A program made the position numbers and the translations under genes. Under the pieces are notes generated by a model that was given only the letters and a program-made list of their open reading frames with translations, was not told where the DNA came from and searched no databases. DNA of 64,000 nucleotides from Deroplatys truncata (taxonomy: Eukaryota > Arthropoda > Insecta > Mantodea > Mantidae): the NCBI GenBank assembly GCA_030765065.1, contig CM060990.1, forward strand, positions 670,932,118 to 670,996,117. The letters run 5' to 3'. Positions 9,116 to 53,865 of the stretch are shown in pieces; the first letter of the stretch is position 1, and the number at the start of each line of letters is the position of its first letter.

Positions 9116-10587
9116 ACTTTTTTTTTTTTTTTTTAAATTTTTTAAATGGTGTGGCCCCTCCTCCGCCACACCAGGTGACGATCATCCGAAAGGGATCTAC
9201 ATCGCCTCCCCTACCATGCACTAACTACAGCTAATGGATGGGAGAGGGAGTGGTGCTAGTGGTGCCAGGTACCGCTTGCGCAACCTGGGGTTAGTGGGTA
9301 ACTCTACGAAAGACGCCGGCCTACCAGGGGGTAGACAGGCAGAGGTGGATCCAGGGCCATCACTTGGCTCGTGGCCCAGTGCTGGTGCCTGGTGTATGTT
9401 AGTGAGGTATTCATGCTCATGCAGGTGGAATTTTGTGTTAGGTGTCGTGCTTAGTGATAGAGTAGAAGTGACCATGCTTACTTACGTGTCGGGTCGGTGC
9501 CGTCGTCTCTGTTGGTGTGGGTTCGTCCTGAAGGAAACATAGAATGTGAGTTTCAGTTACCTATTCGTGTTCCATGTTAGCGCGGTGGTCGTCATAGGGG
9601 CGTTCAGTCCTCATGGCGGGATAAGATGCATTAGGTACTGTGTGACAGGGTCGGGGCCAGTTTGCTTGGTGATGGGAAGAGATCTGTCAAAAAGAGACAG
9701 GGGTCGTTTGTGCTTGTCTGCTTCTGTAGTGTACTGGCCTAGGCCTTGTATCAGAGTGTTATGGTGGGTTTTGGATCGTCTGTATAGATCGTAGGCGAGT
9801 TTCTTAATAAATTCCTCTATTGTGTGTAGTTTGAGTTCGTCGTGCAGTATGTCTGCGGGTGTGCTCTTTGGTACTCTTGAGGCCATTCTGATTATTTTGT
9901 TTTGTATCGTCTGCAGCGTGCGTATGTGCGAGGGGGCACAGTGTCCCCAGACCGGTGCCGCGTATGTCATTATCGGTCTGATTAGGCTCTTGTACAGTGT
10001 GATGCTAAGGGCTGTGCTTAGTTCCGTCTTTCGGTTAATTAATGGGTAAATGCGCGTCAGTTGTGCGTATGCTAGTCTCTTAACTTGTTTGACGTGTGGT
10101 CCAAAGGTTAGTCCGGTGTCCAGTGTCACGCCTAGATATTTCACCTTGTTGGTCCAGTGGATATCGCTTTGTTGAAGTTTCAGCGGAGTTAAGGGTTTCT
10201 TGTGGGAGGTTCTTTTTGTGAAGAGCATTAGTTGTGATTTTGTGGGATTGACTTTAATGCGCCATTGCCGGAGCCAGGGTTCCAGGTCTTGTAGTGCCGT
10301 TTGTAGCCTGGAGTGGATTAGCCTCGGTTGAACGGATCGTGCTGATATGGCAGTGTCGTCGGCATACATGTGTAGTGTTGTGTTGGGTGTTTTTGGGATG
10401 TCATTTACGTATATCGTGAATAGAACCGGCGAGAGTATACTTCCTTGTGGGACCCCAGCATGGAGTTGCCTGGGCTCCGACGTTGCTGTTGACGTTTTGA
10501 CCGCAAAGGTGCGGCCGCTGAGGTAGTGCGCAGCTAGTTTAACAAAGGTGTCCGTGAGATTCAATTGCTTTAGTTTGTATAGTAAGC
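9116..10587 (-). mobile_element. 5'-truncated Jockey-like LINE inserted in LTR-F
   Basis: The element ends on the left in a poly-T run (poly-A on its own strand, about 9119-9134), preceded by a roughly 480-bp 3' UTR. It is truncated on the right inside ORF2 just upstream of LLYKLKQLNLTDTF. LTR-F sequence resumes on both sides. I could not find a clean target duplication, so the right edge is approximate. Confidence 0.82.
9611..10564 (-). pseudogene. Jockey-like reverse transcriptase, C-terminal 317 residues
   Basis: This is an uninterrupted frame for the second half of LINE ORF2, the enzyme that copies element RNA at the target site. Seen from its N-terminus: LAAHYLSGR, GVPQGSILSPVLF (RT motif), MYADDTAISAR (catalytic YADD), then LGVTLDTGLTFGPH and PIMTYAAPVWGHCAPSH, and a C-terminus rich in basic residues ending at a TGA (9611-9613). 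The endonuclease and early RT motifs are absent because the copy is 5'-truncated. The frame is otherwise open, so the insertion looks fairly recent. The methionine at 10564 is internal, not a true start. Confidence 0.85.
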
Positions 10588-38744: not shown

Positions 38745-40110
38745 ACTTTCTCTAGCACATACCTATGGTAGGTAGAGGAGGTATTGCATTCCACCCAAAA
38801 ATTCAACATTAACATTTTAGCACAAATACATGTTTTGAGGTTATCTAAAACGAGTTATAAGAAAAGGTTCGCGCGCACGCGTATATGTGTGTGCGTCTGT
38901 GTGTCTCAAACGAAAATTCGGATCAATACAAAACATCTAATCGATATTCAGTATGTTTCAAGGATGCAACACGAATATTTTTAAGAAAATCATCGCACTT
39001 CAAATTACTCTTACATAAAACTGCTTCGTTATTTTGTATTAGTTACTTAAAAAGTAACTTTAACGATTTTGATTAAAAATATAAAATTTATTGATATTTC
39101 TGCGAATAACCTGAGAAGAGATTTTCATTCTTAATGAATTTTGTGTATTTTTGTATAGCCGGTAATCCCAAGGGATAGGCAAAGCTTACTGAGCAAAAAA
39201 TGTAGATCTCATTGAAACATACAATTTATTTTCTATAAATTTCTTTACGCATTTACCACTTCCGAGATATTCCTTGTTATTTCTTTCTGTTTTTCAGTAT
39301 TTTACTTTCTGCGAGTACTCAAGACGCCATTTCTTTGTTTCTTGTGATTATGCAAAGAGTAGAAGTTTAAGGCAGCATATGGCGACTGGGTTTTTAAGGA
39401 TATGACACCCGTTTCTGTCTCCTGTAATCCTGTTTTACCTACACTAAGATGTAATGAAACCGTTTCTGCCAACACTCATATCGATTAACATGAAGTAGAT
39501 AAAAGAGGGAGAGAAAGGCATGAGAATGTTACGAGGGGCGTCCTATAAGTAAGTTTCTCTATTTTATAAAAAACATTGCACACAATTGATCATGTTGAAT
39601 TAATTTTATTTATATTGTACAATCCTTCTGTTACTTTTCTACATAGTCAACATGTTTTTCAAGCATTTTTGGGGACGTGACACAAGTTTTTCCAAACCAG
39701 TGTTGTACCAGGTCGGGTCCTGTGCTCGCAACCAGCTGTTCTGATTTGACATCATCGGTGTTAAAAGTGCTTACCTTTGAGTTAGAGGAACATATGAAAA
39801 TCACTTGAGGCAAGCTCCGGTGAATACGGAGGATGCAAGAAAACTTCCAAGTTGAATCTTGACCCAGGCGGAGCTCAGAAGATTCAACTGGGAGGTTTTC
39901 TCGCATCCTCCATATTCACCAGATCTTTTCCCAAGTAATTTTCGTATGTTCCCCTGACTCAAAGGTCATCTTGGAGGTAAGCACTTTAACACCGTGACGA
40001 AGATGAATCAGAAGTGAACAGCTGGTTACGAGCACAGGACCCGACTTCTGGTTTTTTTTATAAAATAGGGAAACTTATTTGGCGGCCCTCGTACAATCAC
40101 ATTTTCTTTT
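38745..40110 (+). repeat. Family D copy (D8), split by a palindromic mariner element
   Basis: Family D from AACTTTCTCTAGCACATACC to GAGAGAAAGGCATGAGAATG. The last bases, CAATCACATTTTC, resume after the insert at 40094. Confidence 0.75.
39532..40091. mobile_element. Palindromic mariner-derived element, copy 1
   Basis: CGAGGGGCGTCCTATAAGTA at the left is mirrored by ...GGCGGCCCTCG at the right, with TA at 39530-39531 and 40092-40093. Each half is a mariner 3' terminus, so the two face each other. The left arm read on minus gives ...GLEKLV-type then KMLEKHVDYVEK and a stop (39631-39906). The right arm on plus encodes WEVFSHPPYSPDLFPSNFRM then a stop, with the catalytic D of PSD changed to N. 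The right arm has lost its distal coding end. Confidence 0.82.
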
Positions 40111-52986: not shown

Positions 52987-52988
52987 TA

Positions 52989-53688
52989 CGAGGGCCGTTC
53001 AATAAGTAAGTTTCCCTATTTTATAAAAAACACTACACACAATTGATCATGTTGAATTAATTTTATTTATATTGTACAATCCTTCCCTTAGTTTTTTACA
53101 CAGTCAACATGTTTTCCAACCATTTTTGGGGACGTTACACAAGTTTTTCCAAACCAGTGTTGTACCAGGTTGGGTCCTGTGCTCGCAACCAGCTGGTCAC
53201 TGATTTGACTTCATCATCGGTGTTAAAAGTGCTTATCTTTGAGTTGGAGGAACATGTGAAATTCACTTGGGGCAAGCTCCGGTGAATACGGAGGATACGA
53301 GAAAACTTCCAAGTTGAATCTTGACCCAGGTGGAGCTCAGAAGATTCAACTGAGAAGTTTTCTCGTATTCTCCATATTCACCTGATCTTTTCCCAAGCGA
53401 TTTTCACATTTTCTCCTGACTCAAAGGTCACCTTGGAGGTAAGCACTCTAACACCGTGACGAAGATGAGTCAGAAGTGAACAGCTGGATACGAGCACAGA
53501 ACCCGACCTGGTACAATACTGGCTTAGAAAAACTTGTATCACGTCCCCAAAAATGCTTGGAAAAATATGTTGACTGTGTAGAAAAGTAACGGAAGCATTG
53601 TACAATATAAATAAAATTAATTCAACATGATCTATTGTGTGTAATGTTTTTTATAAAATAGGGAAACTTACTTATTGGACGACCCTCG
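52989..53688. mobile_element. Palindromic mariner-derived element, copy 2
   Basis: 700 bp, TA at 52987-52988 and 53689-53690. CGAGGGCCGTTCAATAAGTA at the left is mirrored at the right end, and the arms match across nearly 330 bp with a short centre near 53340. The right arm on plus encodes HSPYSPDLFPSDFHIF, a stop, then DEDESEVNSWIRAQNPTWYN and TGLEKLVSRPQKCLEKYVDC before VEK and a stop. The left arm encodes the same region on minus. This is the mariner C-terminal third, with the third catalytic D in PSD. Confidence 0.88.
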
Positions 53689-53865
53689 TATATATTACAC
53701 TTATGGTAAATAGTTCCATCATTTAGCTTAAATAAAACAGTTATTTTTAGAGTAAGTTATGAAGACGTGAAAAAAATGTTTAAAATTTAATGCTGAATAA
53801 CATTTTCCCTAAACAGATATAACATAGGTACTCAGTGTGAGAGAGACATTTTCCTCCTTTCTGTG

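Follow-up and report, generated by a model that had tools for sequence, protein, structure and literature searches.

A palindromic non-autonomous mariner family with two 3' ends in the mantis Deroplatys truncata, and evidence for exchange between its outer arms

A 64,000-nucleotide stretch of the genome of the mantis Deroplatys truncata (the window: assembly GCA_030765065.1, contig CM060990.1, positions 670,932,118 to 670,996,117 of the forward strand) contains a 700-bp palindromic, non-autonomous mariner, here called type B. The element occupies positions 52989-53688 and was defined from its sequence, its inverted repeats, its copies elsewhere in the genome, and their consensus. It begins with CGAGGG, ends with CCCTCG, and lies between TA target duplications at 52987-52988 and 53689-53690; TA flanks are also found on most end-to-end copies of the family. 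The left outer arm (52989-53200, minus strand), delimited by comparison with the consensus, is ~212 bp long and comprises the 3' inverted terminal repeat (ITR), the 3' untranslated region (UTR), and the end of the coding sequence, and the right outer arm (53477-53688, plus strand), also ~212 bp, is near-identical to it in the consensus. Each arm holds a remnant of C-terminal transposase coding sequence, which runs from FN.EVFS..YSPELAPSE to the stop on the left (53088-53318, minus strand) and from YSPDLFPSD to VEK and a stop on the right (53345-53589, plus strand); stops and frame breaks interrupt both in the window copy. The 38-bp centre of the palindrome (53313-53350, plus strand; GTTGAATCTTGACCCAGG[C/T]GGAGCTCAGAAGATTCAAC) served as the probe for counting the family in the genome.

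From either end inward, 3' sequence is followed by the end of a mariner transposase on the outward-pointing strand. In a global alignment of the inverted arms, 300 of 338 aligned bases are identical, and a repeat search of the element returns inverted arm pieces of 145, 90, and 86 nt with 83-89% complementarity. Arm identity runs far past the ~30-bp ITR. In fact, nearly the whole element is made of inverted arms (~340 bp each of 700 bp), which is the structure by which the Foldback class is recognized; instead of the Mutator- or P-type ends and target duplications of that class, however, it has a TA duplication and mariner-type ends. It is nearly certain that both arms derive from a single mariner family and consist of its last ~80 codons plus 3' end, so that the element has two 3' ends. 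An initial annotation of this DNA had proposed TA duplications, inverted arms of about 330 bp, and transposase 3' sequence at both termini and in both arms, all of which agrees with these results. It was also right that the arms encode facing C-terminal parts of a mariner transposase, but that part comes closer to a final quarter than to the third that it had named.

The mariner identity of the arms is evident from a query composed from both, which matches residues 267-343 of the 345 residues of Mos1 (E 4.6e-15) and also SETMAR (E 8e-16); the coding part is thus about the last quarter of the transposase, ~80 C-terminal codons per arm. Two shorter raw arm translations had no match in Pfam, and an Rfam search of the window likewise gave no match. 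The homology to the Mos1 C-terminus is accompanied by the TA target-site duplication expected of a mariner, both in the window copy and in family copies. In DD34D mariners, 34 residues separate the second and third catalytic D. This spacing can be counted only in the related type A structures described below, which retain the second D, and there the loop region has 34 residues from HDN to APSD (L088, reading HDNARPH...LAPSD), which is DD34D-like. With ~80 frame-broken C-terminal codons per arm in place of a complete transposase gene, the type B element is a non-autonomous derivative. It is short, non-autonomous, and present in high copy, as are miniature inverted-repeat transposable elements (MITEs); however, it does not retain both the 5' and the 3' end of a parent, as internal-deletion MITEs do, because both of its ends carry C-terminal coding and 3' sequence. 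MADE1 and other mariner MITEs are comparable as high-copy non-autonomous mariner derivatives moved in trans, and MADE1 is palindromic. A transposon-related palindromic repeat of Caenorhabditis elegans, reportedly related to Tc1, is said to be the subject of a 1991 paper by Dreyfus and Emmons, to judge from its title.

The window element belongs to a large non-autonomous family of high copy number. A search of the genome (4.29 Gb in 818 contigs) yielded 3,515 candidate places, the best 40 of which each align over no fewer than 688 of the 700 query bases (90-100% identity) and also match the opposite strand, at 81-83% identity. When these 40 copies were retrieved with their flanks, 26 aligned to the consensus end to end; TA borders 23 of the 26 on the left, 23 on the right, and 22 on both sides, against a TA frequency of 0.094 in the flanking DNA. 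Divergence of the copies from the 701-bp consensus averages 4.0%, which is a lower bound since the copies are the best-scoring ones. Allowing at most three mismatches, the 38-bp centre has 3,697 matches in the genome (1,872 + 1,825) and its reversed control none, although this is not a count of elements, because type C copies (see below) can hold two centres. A pattern from the left inner arm has 3,889 matches (1,983 + 1,906), again with no match for the reversed control. The outer arm pattern has 4,505, a number that, given the different decay of the sites, is not directly comparable with double the centre count and that indicates only the absence of a large surplus of arms. Because all 40 scored places match and the centre is found 3,697 times as opposed to 0 for its control, the window palindrome is not a chance structure; the arms that the initial annotation had noticed once thus mark a high-copy family rather than a single oddity. 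As expected, a search of a plasmid collection gave no match. On contig C1 (338.6 Mb), the exact centre matches are unevenly spread, 62 of the 100 listed lying below 79 Mb, 12 at 80-246 Mb, and 26 at 253-309 Mb; insertion, retention, or the local mutation rate could each account for this.

At least three related structures share the same 3' ends: type A, the type B represented by the window element, and a double-centre palindrome, type C. The type A junction has 69 matches in the genome and the type C junction 1,188. Type A came to light in searches for a parent. A composed C-terminal query (best 150 of 108,594 candidates scored, 30 loci retrieved) gave 20 type B copies with at least 90% coverage, seven partial or rearranged copies, one truncated copy, and two other loci, L079 and L086. 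Together with L088, L094, L117, and L118, these two are the type A loci. In type A the left end is a reversed 3' end, with an arm of ~235-240 bp, that is joined to a right side of ~450 bp including the HDNARPHTA region. Each of the six loci for which the upstream loop was read is a two-3'-ended structure of this kind; L086 has an insert and a shortened left arm, L094 has a degenerate left tip, and L118 is without its right half. The insert in the left arm of L086 is ~550 bp long, and its start reads like a tRNA-derived short interspersed element (SINE), as judged by eye. The type A loop piece (79 genome matches) is seen about as often as the type A junction, and both reversed controls gave 0.

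The full-length parent mariner for which the initial annotation suggested a search was not found among the best-scored matches of the genome searches, in which a decayed parent could be missed. With a 115-residue query (best 150 of 103,505), identity is above 60% in just three rows, each of them type A, while the others, at 54-59%, belong to another family with terminal inverted repeats (TIRs) of ~32 bp. With a 38-residue loop query (best 150 of 10,414), no match with at least 70% identity has an open frame longer than 154 aa, and identity is only 56-67% where the open frame reaches 200 aa. Two candidate parents were rejected. L066 has no inverted partner; its upstream DNA is without transposase sequence, and it is a truncated type B copy that starts at about position 330 of the consensus. 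The other candidate was an abundant full-length mariner family (L089-L093 and L095-L116), whose protein identity is 54-59% and whose ends match at 21 of 26 positions. This family measures ~1.3 kb between its TIRs where measured, has open frames of up to ~403 aa and TIRs of ~32 bp starting CGAGGTACGTCCAGAAAGTAAGTTCC, and looks young, many of its copies scoring alike. Loci L009-L016, retrieved from the best PF01359 matches (best 150 of 66,820 candidates), have little DNA similarity to the palindromic element. Since no full-length parent was found, the origin of the palindromes is not traceable to one end of one identified element.

These results bear on the simplest alternative, that type B is an internal-deletion MITE or that the parent mariner itself had TIRs of several hundred bases. 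A non-autonomous element of uniform length and high copy number at TA target sites is what such a history would yield. Nonetheless, it is very improbable, given that both arms code for the transposase C-terminus, which in an intact element is possible only at the 3' end, that the TIRs of the related full-length family are ~32 bp, and that the six loci with an upstream loop, including the incomplete L086 and L118, are all two-3'-ended type A. As far as has been seen, then, the parent was not a long-TIR mariner.

Type C is characterized by a second turn. In L085, consensus positions 1-494 are followed by the filler CAGAAG and then by inverted consensus from ~525 down to 226, where the match stops; L078 shares this junction but is rearranged in its second half, and a second element at L061 has the same filler with a different continuation. 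The 1,188 genome matches of the 36-bp type C junction pattern (602 + 586) stand against 0 for its reversed control. Among the matches listed for C1, 13 of 25 exact junction matches have a centre or left-inner match at most 600 bp away, and for the five neighbours that are centres the distance is 153-155 bp, in line with prediction. The same listed matches include two opposite-facing centre pairs, 280 and 330 bp apart, and four opposite-facing left-inner pairs. From these pieces we infer a length of ~1,025 bp for type C, with a predicted order of consensus 1-494, the filler CAGAAG, and consensus 525-1 inverted. A motif lying a few bases within the junction recurs in the 6-bp filler at the turn, a trace that slippage of the turning synthesis would be expected to leave. 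The window holds a second member of the family, a TA-flanked element of 560 bp at 39532-40091, which consists of consensus positions 1-525, the filler CTTCTGGTT, and the last ~45 bp of an end. Since this filler reads as the type C junction in reverse complement, we take the element for an internal-deletion derivative of type C.

The type B arms fall into two parts that differ in their divergence. In the consensus, the outer arms agree at 210 of 212 positions; for the inner arms the figure is 113 of 125 aligned positions, with several indels besides (Fisher p 0.0002, substitutions alone). With the majority state of ten type A arms as the reference, 8 derived changes are shared by the outer arms and 2 are private, while the inner arms share 2 and have 19 private ones (p 0.0002). 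The distance between the inner arms is 0.16, compared with 0.10-0.22 from either to the type A arms. This argues that the inner arms may come from two diverged copies or may have parted long before the burst of copies, and the near-identity of the outer arms is probably best explained by later homogenization. The fold-back of a single end that the initial annotation had envisaged is therefore supported only in part: the two 3' ends hold, but the inner arms look like the product of two sources, unless the fold-back is much older than the burst.

Homogenization within individual copies was addressed with a mirror test, in which mutations to the same base at mirrored positions were counted in 60 copies and compared with 2,000 re-pairings of left and right arms across copies. 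The 60 are what is left of 70 loci (L017-L086) after removal of the truncated L066, the type A loci L079 and L086, and L057, L064, L073, L076, L078, L084, and L085, whose coverage is below 0.9. In the outer arms there are 38 mirrored same-base mutations, compared with 12.9 expected (standard deviation 3.5; p the lowest attainable with 2,000 permutations), and among mutations private to one copy 5 are mirrored, compared with 0.09 expected. In the inner arms there are 3, compared with 3.5 expected, and none is private. An earlier run with 40 copies had given 22 mirrored mutations and an expectation of 8.5. Outer-arm controls in which the positions were shifted gave 5 vs 3.0 (p 0.18), 7 vs 3.5 (p 0.055), and 2 vs 3.7 (p 0.90); the excess is thus peculiar to the mirrored positions of the outer arms, although one of these controls is borderline. 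In the type B ends, G and T are both common at position 7, on the left as well as on the right. The position-7 states in 40 copies had suggested flipping of the centre, an idea that was dropped when the association proved not significant in 60 (p 0.094).

The presence of mirrored mutations in the outer and not in the inner arms points to arm-to-arm gene conversion, which is likely to be at work in the outer arms. Selection on transposase-binding or subterminal sequence, or a very recent palindrome, would offer identical outer arms without conversion, and the UTRs beside the ITRs of Mos1 have been described as enhancing transposition (in passages of PMC2642840). Yet selection does not predict that private mutations should be mirrored within one copy, and a recent origin leaves unexplained why diverged inner arms lie beside near-identical outer ones, so that this explanation is improbable. 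If conversion is the cause, the outer arms would keep recombining because they are ~212 bp long and nearly identical, for example when an excision gap is filled from the wrong arm, and the inner arms, being too diverged for easy pairing, would drift.

How the palindromes arose may be considered in the light of what is described for other systems. In yeast, fold-back synthesis at breaks is primed by microhomology (passages of PMC11724301 and PMC7467729), and structural variants of Galileo have been ascribed to post-excision gap repair with abortion, slippage, or template switching (PMC4168063, in part). By analogous steps, template switching or fold-back synthesis during the repair of broken or excised copies might have produced the present palindromes with loss of the 5' half, and the CAGAAG filler of type C would be the best signature of such synthesis. 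This is the leading route, unproven and with odds somewhat short of even. The competing account has two copies lying head to head, 3' ends outward, that lost the middle by deletion and were mobilized from the outer 3' ITRs without any fold-back copying. It fits the inner arms, whose mutual distance (0.16) is no smaller than that to type A (0.10-0.22) and which have 19 private and 2 shared derived changes, and it fits the arms of type A subgroup A2, which show 9 fixed differences in 190 sites (in just 3 left and 2 right sequences). However, it still requires conversion for the near-identical outer arms, and it leaves unexplained both the filler at the type C turn and the occurrence of at least three such events in one family. 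A composite origin is thus possible, if on balance doubtful. A derivation of type B from type A was also considered. Finally, fold-back may feed on itself: long inverted arms would promote more fold-back and conversion, giving ever larger palindromes (A, then B, then the double-centre C) that are amplified one after another, with arms kept identical from the ends inward and no intact parent of their own left. Such a ratchet is rather unlikely as a whole.

We infer that the element moved as a mariner, because of its ends and TA sites, and that it moved in trans, because it has no gene of its own; a mariner transposase able to pair two 3' ITRs would have been needed. Donors of this kind are at least workable, since pseudo-Mos1 donors with two 3' ITRs serve in transposition assays (as described in part of PMC2642840); these constructs resemble the window element in being mariner donors with two 3' ITRs but are engineered and without palindromic arms. 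With Mos1 and Mboumar-9 in vitro, two identical preferred ends are reported as the most active arrangement (passages of PMC4505599).

Taken together, these observations favour a non-autonomous, palindromic mariner with two 3' ends that was mobilized in trans, arose by fold-back or template switching, and undergoes conversion between its arms, an explanation to which we assign a probability of about 0.6. Several points weigh against it. The divergence of the inner arms argues against a recent fold-back of a single copy. No transposase has been tied to the ends of the element, the ends of the abundant full-length family matching at only 21 of 26 bases. In the part of PMC4505599 concerned with Mboumar-9, two right ends are ~3x less active than the natural pair, so that an advantage of two 3' ends is not general and the preferred end differs. 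A modest share of the mirror excess could be non-specific, as one shifted control is borderline, and at position 7 the opposite states (GT/TG) exceed the equal ones, though not significantly in 60 copies (p 0.094). Moreover, the 40 copies retrieved with flanks, as the best-scoring of 3,515 candidates, are a biased sample, and type C is known from partial copies and junctions, none of them read end to end.

As a class, palindromic Tc1-mariners are already published, and the present family is a variant of that class. In Callosobruchus maculatus, 13 consensus palindromic non-autonomous Tc1-Mariners of 654-2,199 bp make up 5.2% of the genome, according to the available passages of PMC10849321. By description, those elements are large, fully inverted, non-autonomous Tc1-mariner palindromes, as is the window element; the same passages do not mention the part of the parent that forms the arms, conversion between arms, or nested forms. 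Tetris and Galileo, Foldback elements of Drosophila, are similar in having very long and unstable inverted arms, a small or absent middle, and no transposase gene any longer (passages of PMC4079207 and PMC4168063). Unlike them, the window element is a mariner with TA sites and its arms are made of transposase C-terminal coding sequence. Aphid MITEs have been ascribed to internal deletion with both ends kept (PMC5490172, in part), whereas both ends of the window element are 3' ends. In the open-licence literature, with most subscription papers outside its scope, no report was found of palindromic mariners built solely from 3' ends, of nested forms with two centres, or of conversion between the arms of such elements.

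The existence of a published class of large palindromic Tc1-mariners limits the surprise of this family, whose interest lies elsewhere. The origins of MITE-like palindromes have mostly been argued from their end state. Here, single-loop, single-centre, and double-centre forms occur in one genome with shared junctions, so that junction sequences can reveal in what order, and by what chemistry, the steps took place. Converting outer arms beside drifting inner arms would provide a natural measure of gene conversion within a transposon, and an amplified mariner with two 3' ends is the natural counterpart of the laboratory constructs with two 3' ITRs. Elsewhere in the window, positions 9611-10564 of the minus strand contain an open frame of 317 aa that, by eye, reads like the reverse transcriptase of a long interspersed element (LINE).
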